Notes under the pieces: model-generated
Seen by the model: only the letters and a program-made list of their open reading frames with translations
Database searches by the model: none
Told to the model about the DNA's origin: nothing
Translations under genes and position numbers: made by a program
Shown here: positions 15,452-30,659 of the stretch, one piece after another
Numbering within the stretch: position 1 is the stretch's first letter
How the letters are laid out: every line of letters starts with the position of its first letter
Source: Bacillota bacterium
Lineage (GTDB): Bacteria; Actinomycetota; Aquicultoria; Aquicultorales; Aquicultoraceae
Length of the DNA stretch: 64,000 nt
Assembly (NCBI GenBank): GCA_023511485.1
Contig: JAIMBH010000015.1
Coordinates: 1 to 64,000, forward strand
Direction: 5' to 3'

Positions 15452-16732
15452 CTAGCGCATTCCTGTATTCCATCCGCTATGCATCGAGAAGGCACCTTCT
15501 CCTCCCGCATATCCCATTGGGTAGACTTTTTCCGGGTTGTCATGACACCTGCCGCAGAAGTCAAGTGCGTGACAATTGCAGCCGGCTCCGTTCGACTTTG
15601 CGACCTTCTGGTGCTCATAGTACCATTTATCAGGCAGCCCATGGATTTCACCTTCGCTGTGACACCCGCACATCCTGTTTTCGCTCATACTTTCCCAGTG
15701 GCATTTATAGCAAAGACCGTTAAGTTTCTCAGCCTGCATTGGATGGTGCTTCTTAAACTCGGCGCTGTGCGGCAGGGTTAACCCATGGCATTTGACACAA
15801 CCCTGAGTAGTTGCCGGTTGGTGGCAGCCGGTACAGGTAATTCTTATAGTTTTTACCTTAGGCCAGTCATCCAGCATTCTATTTTCCTTATACGCTATAT
15901 CTTGCTTATGGCAGGTATCACATTTGGCGCTTGCTATTTTGTTATTGTGGCAACCGGTGCAGCTATTCATGGCAAATAGCTTGGCTGTTTGCGTCTTGTG
16001 CGCGACATCTGGATGGCAGCCGGTACAACTAAAGCCCCCGGTTATTAAATCTTTATGCCTAACCATTACTTCCTGCTTACTCTTAACCGTTCGGTTGAAG
16101 ATATCATTATGGCATTGCAGACAGGAGCTGTTAGTTACAACTGCAGGGGACGGTTCACCCCCCTTAAAAAAGTATGCGATCAGGTGTTCTGCCCCGGTAA
16201 TGTTTCCGGTGATGTAACCGAAGATGCCGGGCTCGTAGTGGCAGCTTAAACAGCCTACGTCCTTGTGCGTTGACTTCTGCCACTCCGCATGGCTTTTCTC
16301 TATAGAGTGGCACTTTGCACAGAGTACCGGCTGCGAGGCGGCCACATTTACGATGGCTAGAAAAACTATTAGAGAAATCGACGCAATAGTGAATCTTCTG
16401 ATGATCTCTTCTTTTGGTATCGCTCTGTTGACGCTTCTCGCTGCTTTGTGGATCTCATATTGTTTCTTGATTGAGAAGATTATTAATATGAAAAGGATTG
16501 CTACGATTAGCGTTAAAACAATTGCCGAAATTATGATGACTGACTCACGCGGGAACCGCCTGGGATTCCTGAGGATTAATACCACCTGGTTTAAGAGCTT
16601 AACCAAGGTCGACTTAAGTTTATCCCAATTTGAGAAATATTTTGTTAAGCGGCCAAATAGCGATTCGGAATCGACCTGCGCAAATCCAGATATGTACAAG
16701 TGTGTTGCAAGTAGATACAGTTTTGCTAGCAT
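15452..16732 (-). CDS. Membrane-anchored multiheme cytochrome (10 CXXCH plus 2 CXCH), NapC/NirT-like
   Basis: 426 aa. Two membrane segments (about 65-88 and 112-130) precede a heme domain starting with CAKCH. Ten CXXCH motifs are visible: CAKCH, CLSCH, CLQCH, CTGCH (three times), CDTCH, CVKCH, CYKCH and CGRCH. Two further sites read CGCH (bases 15659-15670) and CNCH (15569-15580), i.e. CXCH, which is not a standard heme-binding motif. The layout fits quinol-oxidising or membrane relay cytochromes. The gene follows the 12-heme gene after 26 bases in one operon. The ATG at 16732 has an AGGAG site about 12 nt upstream, rather distant, so a different start is possible. Confidence 0.85.
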   Translation of the reverse strand: MLAKLYLLATHLYISGFAQVDSESLFGRLTKYFSNWDKLKSTLVKLLNQVVLILRNPRRFPRESVIIISAIVLTLIVAILFILIIFSIKKQYEIHKAARSVNRAIPKEEIIRRFTIASISLIVFLAIVNVAASQPVLCAKCHSIEKSHAEWQKSTHKDVGCLSCHYEPGIFGYITGNITGAEHLIAYFFKGGEPSPAVVTNSSCLQCHNDIFNRTVKSKQEVMVRHKDLITGGFSCTGCHPDVAHKTQTAKLFAMNSCTGCHNNKIASAKCDTCHKQDIAYKENRMLDDWPKVKTIRITCTGCHQPATTQGCVKCHGLTLPHSAEFKKHHPMQAEKLNGLCYKCHWESMSENRMCGCHSEGEIHGLPDKWYYEHQKVAKSNGAGCNCHALDFCGRCHDNPEKVYPMGYAGGEGAFSMHSGWNTGMR

Positions 16733-22956: not shown

Positions 22957-23226
22957 GTGCTTGATATTCATGAACCAATTGAGGTTTCTGCGGTCTTTAC
23001 TAAAGGCCGCCTAAAGCCAATCTCGTTTGTCTGGAAACGCAGATATTACAAAATCGACAGTATAACAGGGGTTTATAAATATTTTGTAGGCGCCTCCAAG
23101 TGCTATGGCTATATAGTAAGGTCGGGCTCTGACCTGTATGAGATATCGCTAAACACTGGAGAGATGGTCTGGCAACTAGAGAAGATACATGACGGATTTG
23201 ACTTCTACAGCCAGCGGAAGGTTTAG
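22957..23226 (+). CDS. DUF6504-like small protein cotranscribed with dinB
   Basis: 89 aa, no signal peptide or membrane segment. It looks like a compact mostly beta protein with a conserved-looking pattern (PISFVWKRRYYKIDSITG, YEISLNTGEMVWQLEKIHD). Short proteins of this type commonly sit next to Y-family polymerases in actinobacteria, from which I infer the DUF6504-like label; the function is unknown. GTG at 22957-22959 follows GGAGGAG at 6 nt. It is first in the SOS operon, 15 bases before dinB, which suggests a DNA-damage or polymerase-linked role. Confidence 0.7.
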   Translation: MLDIHEPIEVSAVFTKGRLKPISFVWKRRYYKIDSITGVYKYFVGASKCYGYIVRSGSDLYEISLNTGEMVWQLEKIHDGFDFYSQRKV

Positions 23227-27396: not shown

Positions 27397-28131
27397 CTAC
27401 AGGCGGGCAATTATCTCATCGCCCAGCTTCTTGATTTCCCAGCGGATGCGCCCAAGCGTTGTCCACTGCGAAGCAACAATGACCAGCGCGACATCCGGGT
27501 TGAGAGATGATACCGCTACCGGTCCGTGCTCGAATTCAAGAAGGGCTGTTTTAAGTCCGCCCTGATTTAATTCGTATCCGATTCTATCGAGCACGCTAAA
27601 ACTAGTTGCAATAATGGCGCTTACCATCTCCGCATCAAGCTCGGTGCTGGATACATGGTCGATTGTAAAACCGTCTCGCGTGACAAGGACAGCAGCTATA
27701 ACTCCATCGATATCTATAAAACGATGCAGCAGTTGCTGAAGGGTAACCATGTCAAGTGGGTCTTCATCGTTAAGAAGGCTTTCTACCTCTTCTTGTGTTA
27801 CAAGATCGCTGGCAGTATTATCTACTGGCTCAGCCGTAATGATTTTTTCTGCTACCTCTTCTATTATCGCGCTTTCTTCTGCTATCTCCTGTGCCGCGAT
27901 GGCCTCGCTGCTGCTTGCCTCTTTGCCATCGGCATTTTGGGGCGCATTTGCATTCTTGATTCTTTCGGCCAGTGCTTCAACGATATTTTTCCTTATTTCG
28001 GCCTCGTTCGGTTGTTTTGGCCTGCCTCTTTCGGCATCTTTTTTCTTTTTTTTCTTATCGTCCGGGGACTCATCCGGCTCGTTACCTTTTAAGAATACGG
28101 ATATTAGCTCAGCAAAATCTCGCTCATCCAA
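27397..28131 (-). CDS. Roadblock/LC7 domain protein with charged N-terminal extension
   Basis: 244 aa. Residues 1-120 are low-complexity and charged: a KKKKKDAERGRPKQ tract, then Glu/Ala-rich. Residues about 132-240 form a Roadblock/LC7 domain (LHRFIDIDGVIAAVLVTRDGFTID, MVSAIIATSFSVLDRIGYELNQGG, PVAVSSLNPDVALVIVAS). These domains usually regulate small GTPases (MglA-type) or scaffold complexes, but no GTPase gene is in the window. The start is TTG at 28129-28131, with GGAGG 6 nt upstream. It lies 200 bases after the KaiC-like cluster on the same strand and could be part of it. Confidence 0.85.
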   Translation of the reverse strand: MDERDFAELISVFLKGNEPDESPDDKKKKKKDAERGRPKQPNEAEIRKNIVEALAERIKNANAPQNADGKEASSSEAIAAQEIAEESAIIEEVAEKIITAEPVDNTASDLVTQEEVESLLNDEDPLDMVTLQQLLHRFIDIDGVIAAVLVTRDGFTIDHVSSTELDAEMVSAIIATSFSVLDRIGYELNQGGLKTALLEFEHGPVAVSSLNPDVALVIVASQWTTLGRIRWEIKKLGDEIIARL

Positions 28132-28330
28132 GGCGAACCTCCTCTGGGACGGGTATTCCGGTACACTTAGTATGTCATTAGTTTACAGGCAATCTATTTA
28201 GTTGCCAAGTCCTACCAGACATTACATGAATGCCAATGACTTGATTGCTGTAATAGTATTAAATGACGGTAGATAGATTGTCTACTATGTGATTTGGCGT
28301 TGGTTAGTCTTTGGGCACTATCAGCAGTGA

Positions 28331-28732
28331 TTAATTCTCTCTAAGTATCTCGTGGAGTTGTTTGAGAAGGTTGCTGTCTTCGGCACCTAAAGCAAAAATT
28401 GCGGCTATCGTACAGCTGATATCGGCCTTAGGTTCATAGGAGTAGACAGCGATGGGGTCGTTATCGGAAAGATTCTTTAGAATCCCGTTACGTGCCAGCT
28501 CATCGGCCTCTTTTTCTACCTGCCCTTGCCTTCGGCCGATTATGTTGGCAAGGCCTTTTACAGTATGTAAAGAGAAGGGATTCGCCTGATAGAAATTAAC
28601 TAAATCCCATTTAATGGGCGAATCAAGAATGTCTAAAACAAGCGATTTTGTTTTGTTGTCCAGAGCTTTTAGTATTCTTGCTATTTTTCTGTTTATCGTC
28701 TTACTCACCAGAATTGTCGTTGTCGTATTCAT
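28331..28732 (-). CDS. Winged-helix-like small protein
   Basis: 133 aa, no membrane segment. Residues 40-85 look like an HTH (SPIKWDLVNFYQANPFSLHTVKGLANIIGRRQ with dots of variation, then EKEADELARNGILK), in the pattern of archaeal/bacterial winged helices that predict DNA or protein binding. The exact family is not recognised. It is the last gene of the KaiC-like cluster; its first 32 bases overlap the end of the membrane gene 28701-29120, so translation is coupled. A dedicated transcription factor or a kinase-regulator adaptor are both possible. Confidence 0.6.
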   Translation of the reverse strand: MNTTTTILVSKTINRKIARILKALDNKTKSLVLDILDSPIKWDLVNFYQANPFSLHTVKGLANIIGRRQGQVEKEADELARNGILKNLSDNDPIAVYSYEPKADISCTIAAIFALGAEDSNLLKQLHEILREN

Positions 28733-29120
28733 GTTTGCTGGCTAACTCCTGGAAGAACTTGTATTGCCTGATCAAACCAATTAGGACCAGGATCAAGAAT
28801 AATAGCTCAGCAAGAATATGAATATTCTTAAGCACAAGTATTATAGGCTCCCATACCTTCATGCTGAAACCGGCTTTACCACCAGCCAGGTTTAAGTCAA
28901 GAGCAAGTGATAATACTGGTTGGCTAACTTTATACCTTAACAGAAAGTTATGTACGATTAGGATAGTAAAAGATATCGCATACACCGGCACGCTTGGAAG
29001 TATCCAGCGCCAGCTCTCTGCCAGATCACCCTCTAAGATAAGCCAGGTTTTGCGTGCGATTAGGGCGGCTACAAGTCCAATGACTGTAACTATAATGGCA
29101 ATTAAATCAACCGATGTCAC
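28701..29120 (-). CDS. Small four-helix membrane protein of KaiC-like cluster
   Basis: 139 aa. Hydrophobic segments near 4-24, 42-62, 70-85 (weaker) and 95-120, ending in an Asp/Asn-rich tail. It resembles the adjacent 104-aa protein, for example both end their last helix with a GLIRQYKFFQEL or GLLRQYQLLKGL motif, so the two are probably ancient duplicates. No known family is recognised. It begins right after the stop of the upstream gene (29121). Confidence 0.65.
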   Translation of the reverse strand: MTSVDLIAIIVTVIGLVAALIARKTWLILEGDLAESWRWILPSVPVYAISFTILIVHNFLLRYKVSQPVLSLALDLNLAGGKAGFSMKVWEPIILVLKNIHILAELLFLILVLIGLIRQYKFFQELASKHEYDNDNSGE

Positions 29121-29435
29121 TTAGGCACCTCGCCGTCTAGAGAGGCCTTTTAGTAGCTGATACTGCCGCAGAAGGCCGAAGAAGGCAAGTATAACAAAGA
29201 CGAAATGGGCGGTAATCCCAAGGAACTGCGTGCTTATGCCAGCGAGGGATGTTACATCAAGCTCATAAAGAAGCATAAATAGCATTGCCAATGCAAGTAC
29301 CTGGAAAGCGATGAAAGAATATGTCCAGCTTAAGGCTAAGTTGCCAGCGACTTTTCTAAGTATACCGTATGATATAAATGCTGCCAGGCACGCCAATAAC
29401 AAGTCGATTAGTTCTATAAAAGCTACGAAGCCCAT
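29121..29435 (-). CDS. Small three-helix membrane protein of KaiC-like cluster
   Basis: 104 aa with three hydrophobic segments (about 5-25, 38-60, 70-90) and a basic C-terminus (SRRRGA). Its last helix and following motif (FFGLLRQYQLLKGL) match the next gene's product. Located 5 bases after the KaiC-like ATPase gene. The function is unknown; it may form a heteromeric membrane sensor or receptor with its neighbour. Confidence 0.65.
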   Translation of the reverse strand: MGFVAFIELIDLLLACLAAFISYGILRKVAGNLALSWTYSFIAFQVLALAMLFMLLYELDVTSLAGISTQFLGITAHFVFVILAFFGLLRQYQLLKGLSRRRGA

Positions 29436-29440
29436 CGAAG

Positions 29441-30217
29441 CTACCTTTTCTTGCGAATTAGTCCCTCTTCAAGAAGAGTCTTACCGCTGACCAGGCGTGA
29501 TGGGAATCCGGTTAGAATTCCCTGTTGTCCTGCGAACTTGGTATCGATCTTTATACCTTTATCTGTAATTTTATATCTTCTAATATCTTTGGCATGTTTG
29601 CTGCCTCTGGCTTTAAGAATCGTAAGGGCGGTCTCAAGCTCACTCTCGATCTCAACATATCTTAAGAAGATTATATTATCAACGACAAAGCCAAGGCTTG
29701 CTTCAAGCACACCGTCGTGACCAAAAAACAGGGGAACCTCACTGGTTAATATGGTGGTTAGCCCTAGCCTCTTGAATCCATTTATCAAGCTGTTAAATAT
29801 CTGCCTTAATTCCTGGGGGTTGTTATCAAGCTGCTCCATTAAGGTCACGGAATCGATCACAATTCTTTTCGCGTCAATCTCCGCGACCAGGCGATCGATA
29901 AAGCCGTTTTCTTTCTCGAGCTCGCCCTTAAGGACAGCCGGGGACGTGAAAATAACCTTAATCTTGCCCTGATCTGCAAGTTTTTTAAGGTCCCAGCCCA
30001 TGTTTAGCGCATCCCGGTAGATAATCTCTGGAAATTCCTCAAATGTGATATAGATTCCCGATTCATCATAGTGAGCGGCTCCATTATGGATAAATTGTAT
30101 CCCAAAGGTAGTCTTCCCTGTTCCAGGTGGACCCGCTATTACAGTTGAGCTTCTCTCATAGAGGCCACCATCAAGCAGTTCATCTAATCCGGGTACGCCG
30201 CTTAGTATTTTTTTCAC
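29441..30217 (-). CDS. KaiC/RadA-superfamily ATPase, single domain
   Basis: 258 aa, one KaiC domain. Walker A GPPGTGKT (29-36), the catalytic Glu pair TFEEF (60-61), Walker B RIVIDS (117-122) and the KARGS motif (201-205) are all intact, so it should bind and hydrolyse ATP. Stand-alone KaiC-like proteins form hexamers and act as ATP-driven signal or switch proteins in archaea and many bacteria; they are not circadian by default. It is the first gene of a four-gene run that continues with two membrane proteins and a winged-helix-like protein. ATG follows GGAGG. Confidence 0.88.
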   Translation of the reverse strand: MKKILSGVPGLDELLDGGLYERSSTVIAGPPGTGKTTFGIQFIHNGAAHYDESGIYITFEEFPEIIYRDALNMGWDLKKLADQGKIKVIFTSPAVLKGELEKENGFIDRLVAEIDAKRIVIDSVTLMEQLDNNPQELRQIFNSLINGFKRLGLTTILTSEVPLFFGHDGVLEASLGFVVDNIIFLRYVEIESELETALTILKARGSKHAKDIRRYKITDKGIKIDTKFAGQQGILTGFPSRLVSGKTLLEEGLIRKKR

Positions 30218-30382
30218 TGTATGCCTCCATTATTAATTACTACATACTTGATCGCGCAATCTGCCCAGGTACACCGAACTGTTGCGCAGAGGCAAAAGCT
30301 CCGCAAAAATGTGCCGGCAGCAGGTGAAACAATTCGCTAATCTATAGACTAGGATAACATATAAGTAACTTCATCTCTACTT

Positions 30383-30414
30383 TTACTCTATAAATTTATC
30401 AAGAACTAGAGTAA
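30383..30414. repeat. 8-bp perfect inverted repeat, operator candidate
   Basis: TTACTCTA (30383-30390) and TAGAGTAA (30407-30414), 16-base spacer, between the KaiC-like gene and dnaK. Could serve either gene. Confidence 0.35.
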
Positions 30415-30597
30415 TTCAATATCTTGTAACCTCTTATACAAAGCCTCTCCTAGCCTGCATAGATGCTATGCTGAATATTTAGCATGTCGTGCGATCACTA
30501 ATCCTTGCATCAACTAATGGTATTTATAAGTTAGCGTTTGCGGTATAAAGTTAGTTTGCCGATGGTCGATAATATAATAAGAACCATATAATAAAAC

Positions 30598-30626
30598 TTG
30601 ACAATACCACGCTTAGATTTTATACT
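30598..30626 (+). promoter_or_regulatory. dnaK promoter
   Basis: TTGACA (30598-30603), 17-base spacer, TATACT (30621-30626), 33 bases before the dnaK ATG. Near-consensus housekeeping promoter; GCTTAG and ACTTAG half-repeats lie in and after the spacer. Confidence 0.85.
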
Positions 30627-30659
30627 TAGATTAAACTGAAGCGTAAGGAGTGTTGAATA

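Follow-up and report, generated by a model that had tools for sequence, protein, structure and literature searches.

A KaiC-like ATPase gene with a pair of membrane protein genes and a winged-helix gene as a candidate signalling module in a Candidatus Aquicultor-like genome

Results

Genes of the locus

The window analyzed in this study is a stretch of 64,000 nucleotides from a Candidatus Aquicultor-like genome of the Actinomycetota (2.37 Mb, estimated completeness 100%), to which Ca. Aquicultor MAGs are closest among named relatives. Within positions 27397-30217 it carries five ORFs on the minus strand, which encode a KaiC ATPase, two paralogous proteins with three transmembrane (TM) segments each, a winged-helix (WH) protein and a Roadblock protein. 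An earlier sequence-only reading had described the first four as a tightly packed group with gaps of 5, 0 and -32 bases, and its coordinates, strand and spacing are all borne out, except that the overlap of 32 bases applies to the longer WH ORF and is probably 8 bases, the likely start being the GTG at 28708. These ORFs are real genes: they are syntenic across the family, and a rough median dN/dS of 0.06-0.17, with dS saturated, reveals purifying selection on all genes of the locus as far as that saturation allows.

An Rfam search of the locus gave no match. A defence system was considered and rejected, since PADLOC found none for four of the five proteins and only weak P-loop matches for KaiC. 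Regulation together with the adjacent dnaK through HspR HAIR or CIRCE sites was rejected as well, because such sites show no excess over chance and none lies between kaiC and dnaK. The same kaiC-dnaK gap in relatives (L027-L034, L140) appears to carry a small gene for a 4Fe-4S ferredoxin-like protein, which in G003 shows up as an ORF of 61 aa and which the window lacks at 30218-30659. Elsewhere in the window, a protein of 89 aa and unknown family is encoded at 22957-23226 on the plus strand between rex and a DinB-type polymerase gene, and it is conserved beside dinB in relatives.

The KaiC ATPase

The kaiC gene (29441..30217, minus strand) starts with GTG behind a GGAGG and encodes a single-domain protein of 258 aa. 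It matches PF06745 at 195.6 bits (cut-off 26.6) and carries a Walker A motif (GPPGTGKT), the catalytic glutamate E60 and a Walker B motif (RIVIDS), which places it in the KaiC ATPase family and agrees with the earlier claim that all catalytic motifs are present. Across 12 homologues the key residues of these motifs do not vary, the C-terminal tail SGKTLLEEGLIRKKR shows strong conservation within the family, and nine other genomes within the family and order hold relatives at 69-86% identity. The cyanobacterial KaiABC clock is alike in the KaiC fold and ATPase motifs, but the window KaiC has one domain, Gly-Phe stands where the second KaiC domain has its Ser-Thr phosphosites, and no PF07689 (KaiB) match is found in the genome. 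The KaiC module is for these reasons no Kai clock. Among KaiC homologues, those of about 250 aa come mostly from archaea and from few bacteria, and have neither KaiB nor the phosphosites (PMC5520375), a picture that the window KaiC fits. In another genome, G020, two kaiC copies with interrupted frames lie beside winged-helix genes (L040:4115-4884 and 15715-16493), reflecting either assembly error or decay.

The two membrane proteins

Membrane protein A (104 aa; 29121..29435, minus strand) and membrane protein B (139 aa; 28701..29120, minus strand) each have three TM segments, and A belongs to no Pfam family. The suggestion that they are paralogues is confirmed by profile-profile comparison (probability 97.4%, E 1e-11). 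In both proteins the TM1-TM2 loop is the best conserved region, and the TM2-TM3 loop is poorly conserved. Protein B has a conserved loop motif, ARKxW..EGDLA.SWRW, and a C-terminal motif, GLxRQY..F. The first loop and the C-terminus of both probably face the cytoplasm, an orientation for which the charge also argues in A, with the charge signal in B being unclear. An AlphaFold model of B reached a pLDDT of 64.9 and was left unused.

The winged-helix protein

The WH gene (28331..28708, minus strand) encodes 125 aa from GTG or 133 aa from an ATG at 28732. The GTG is probably the true start, because relatives begin around residues 9-13 of the 133-aa form. AlphaFold2 predicts a winged helix with a pLDDT of 90.5, in line with the earlier description, and in a Foldseek search ArsR/MarR folds are nearest (best E 1.5e-3). 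The recognition helix is acidic, with a mean net charge of -2.1 and a range of -5 to 1 among 39 members, which counts against simple DNA binding and makes protein binding as likely as DNA binding. Members of this family also occur without KaiC in many Actinomycetota, and the genome itself holds a second copy. On a tree of the family the KaiC-linked members are clustered, with 3 label changes compared with 9.4 in shuffles. The second copy (G000:C4, L174:5698-6048, minus strand) is KaiC-free and adjoins DUF167-like, DivIVA-like and YggT-like genes and ileS. In two other Actinomycetota (L180, L185) a KaiC-free winged-helix gene has the same orientation as dnaK and lies two genes upstream of it.

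Conservation in the family and the sister family

In eight genomes of the family the locus lies beside a divergent dnaK, with the order kaiC, A, B and WH followed by the Roadblock gene about 100-200 bases further on. The full kaiC-A-B-WH set is present in seven of the eight, and in G005 no WH gene is detected at the locus. In the sister family (G011) the same four genes adjoin dnaK without the Roadblock gene. The sequence-only reading had proposed a neighbourhood search and would have given way had the genes not co-occurred beyond this genome; instead, conservation in the family and its sister shows that they do. Two further genomes depart from this pattern. In G003, kaiC and membrane protein A are gone and membrane protein B is a decayed remnant, with WH and Roadblock kept in place. 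In G001 the set is absent, and this may be an assembly gap, since only 578 bases of contig remain upstream of dnaK.

The Roadblock gene

The Roadblock gene (27397..28131, minus strand) starts with TTG and encodes 244 aa, with a Roadblock/LC7 domain at residues 132-220 (27472..27738, minus strand; PF03259, 42.5 bits, cut-off 23). The long charged part that the earlier reading took for a tail is in fact N-terminal (residues 1-130) and contains conserved motifs, among them the opening MDExDFAELISVFLKG (28084..28131, minus strand), which is almost invariant. Upstream lies a conserved promoter-like element, TTGGCA-N17-TAAACT with a TG before the second hexamer (28180..28208, minus strand), which is found in 10 of 10 genomes, including G003, with an identical spacer. 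As judged from this element, the gene is probably a transcription unit of its own. A regulon sharing the element was rejected, since the genome contains no second exact copy. In the sister family the Roadblock gene is on a different contig from the kaiC set, and the Chloroflexota KaiC loci described below yielded no Roadblock gene. Because it has its own conserved promoter-like element, is apart from the kaiC set in the sister family and has survived the loss of kaiC in G003, the Roadblock gene is probably a lineage-specific neighbour and not core to the KaiC module, in contrast to the earlier reading, which counted it in the set. It may act as an added regulator.

The MglA/MglB system and the actinobacterial conservons (PMC4316618) likewise contain a Roadblock/LC7 protein, but here the Roadblock gene is separable, no histidine kinase adjoins it, and no MglA-like or Ras-like GTPase matches in the genome, which extends to the whole genome what had been claimed locally; class relatives G016, G018 and G023 do have matches. 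A system of either kind was rejected because the partner GTPase was not found. In three class relatives the Roadblock gene is near a GTPase gene, and the loci L142, L143 and L144 show a run of PilB-like, Roadblock, DUF4388-like and Ras-like GTPase genes. A separate 294-aa protein of the window genome (G000:C38, L146:9421-10305, minus strand), which has a relative in G008 (L145:8893-9774), combines a DivIVA domain (50.9 bits) with a weak C-terminal Roadblock match (18.6 bits, cut-off 23).

Comparable gene sets in other phyla

A KaiC profile scan of 84,980 species genomes, blind to neighbouring genes, yielded 80 loci, and at most of them, including loci of Armatimonadota, Bacillota and Nitrososphaera, a WH-family gene adjoins KaiC. 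In Chloroflexota, 36 loci found by KaiC alone had at least 600 bases upstream and at least 1200 downstream. A WH gene upstream and two small three-TM genes downstream were present at 31 of these 36, and secA lay upstream of KaiC at 28. A histidine kinase was encoded within 2.5 kb downstream at 18 of the 32 loci with longer flanks; those examined have GAF, mostly also PAS, and HisKA and HATPase domains. The two Chloroflexota membrane proteins are probably paralogues of each other (93%). They have in common with the Aquicultor pair the size, the three TM segments and the position. However, profile comparisons between the two pairs gave no signal, so the common layout may be convergent, and the WH gene comes last in Aquicultor but first in Chloroflexota.

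Three loci of Methanosarcinales show a KaiC of about 490-505 aa followed by the same three-TM pair; no WH gene was detected beside KaiC at these loci. The single KaiC of this group that was analyzed for domains has two KaiC domains, and at the one locus examined further downstream a dCache-HAMP-PAS histidine kinase follows the pair. Other Actinomycetota of the class have a different type of membrane gene after KaiC, one of which shows a weak, sub-cut-off similarity to the TM region of an archaeal histidine kinase. Other arrangements were also observed, such as an 872-aa ORF in Armatimonadota in which two KaiC domains are fused to a solute-binding-protein domain (L100:6141-8759, plus strand), and in Virgibacillus a run of KaiC, a winged-helix gene and a GAF/PocR-like protein with a LuxR-type DNA-binding domain (L102:9048-11186, plus strand).

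Discussion

This study describes a compact gene set for which we favour, with slightly more confidence than doubt, the reading that KaiC, the two three-TM proteins and the WH protein constitute one membrane-coupled signalling module. The gene set, its order and packing, the predicted folds and the ATPase motifs are the observed part of this reading. It is further supported by the synteny of the core in seven of eight family genomes and the sister family, by the same kinds of genes at 31 of 36 Chloroflexota loci and by KaiC with the three-TM pair in Methanosarcinales, as well as by the clustering of KaiC-linked WH proteins, the conserved TM1-TM2 loop, the invariant ATPase motifs and the conserved KaiC tail. 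The GAF/PAS histidine kinases encoded immediately downstream at related loci make signalling the best reading. Of the earlier suggestion of a membrane sensor or a polarity or signal relay, the signalling part therefore stands, but nothing in these results speaks for polarity. Several findings count against a module, including the lack of profile similarity between the membrane pairs, the differing gene order, the WH proteins without KaiC in many Actinomycetota, the family genome without WH, the retention of WH after the loss of kaiC in G003 and the fact that no histidine kinase adjoins the locus in the window.

We infer that the proteins form a complex, in which the paired three-TM proteins would sit in the membrane as a sensor or anchor and would bind the KaiC ring on the cytoplasmic side, through the C-terminus and the conserved loop. 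A cue from the membrane or from outside the cell would then alter how the ring binds or hydrolyses ATP. The ring would act as a switch and relay the change by holding, releasing or reshaping the WH protein as its output, and the WH protein would in turn act on another protein or on DNA. In Chloroflexota, the GAF/PAS histidine kinase that is often encoded downstream probably feeds into the module or reads it out. More tentatively, and with more doubt than confidence, we suggest that bacteria may have a form of signalling across the membrane that connects a paired three-TM receptor with a winged-helix output by means of a KaiC ring ATPase, and uses neither a histidine kinase nor a one-component receptor for this step. 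It may be common to Aquicultor-type Actinomycetota and Chloroflexota and partly to archaea.

It is conceivable, if rather unlikely, that the functional unit consists of KaiC and the membrane pair only, and that WH is a frequent operon neighbour with a role of its own, such as general regulation, kept by operon history. The solitary WH genes of many Actinomycetota, the second copy in the genome, G003 and the Methanosarcinales loci all agree with this explanation. However, WH adjoins KaiC in several phyla at differing positions, either upstream, immediately downstream or after the TM genes, so that descent of a single operon is not an easy explanation. We consider it improbable that KaiC is an ArlH-like assembly or secretion factor that helps to build a membrane machine through the three-TM pair. 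ArlH, the KaiC-like ATPase of the archaellum, is indeed a KaiC relative linked to membrane proteins at a membrane motor (PMC13286277), and secA precedes most of the Chloroflexota copies, but the window KaiC scores only 37 bits against the ArlH model (cut-off 215), the locus has no pilus, archaellum or secretion genes, and its neighbour in Aquicultor is dnaK, not secA. An equally small chance is given to a five-gene unit in which Roadblock would regulate the KaiC NTPase as MglB does MglA. PMC4316618 describes Roadblock proteins as likely regulators of NTPases, the genome yielded no GTPase as a partner, and the gene lies downstream in all eight other family genomes with the cassette; against this stand its own promoter-like element, its separation from the set in the sister family, its retention without kaiC in G003, and the Chloroflexota loci in which it was not found. 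A reduced Kai timing system, suggested by the KaiC homology, is highly improbable for a single-domain KaiC with its clock phosphosites replaced, no KaiB in the genome and no oscillator sites, as described for single-domain KaiC (PMC5520375).

The signalling reading bears on a wider idea about KaiC proteins. Makarova, Galperin and Koonin in 2017 reportedly proposed KaiC-like ATPases as signal transduction hubs in archaea. In this published proposal, which PMC5847659 and PMC13286277 cite, single- or double-domain KaiC proteins are reportedly encoded near helix-turn-helix, membrane and two-component genes, which resembles the present set, but the window set is bacterial and has a defined pair of paralogous three-TM proteins. 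Links of KaiC to sensory, helix-turn-helix or two-component genes, of the kind expected for such hubs, are found here as WH in the window and as WH, the three-TM pair and histidine kinases in relatives. No description of the bacterial kaiC-TM-TM-WH set was found in the literature searched, a search that did not extend to the central 2017 paper on archaeal KaiC hubs, and within that scope we agree with the earlier statement that no such system is described. For KaiC proteins beyond the cyanobacteria, little is clear about function (PMC5520375). The present set, compact and recurrent, combines a single ATPase with a membrane pair and a single WH partner; with so few proteins to purify, it makes the idea of KaiC as a signalling hub in bacteria directly testable.
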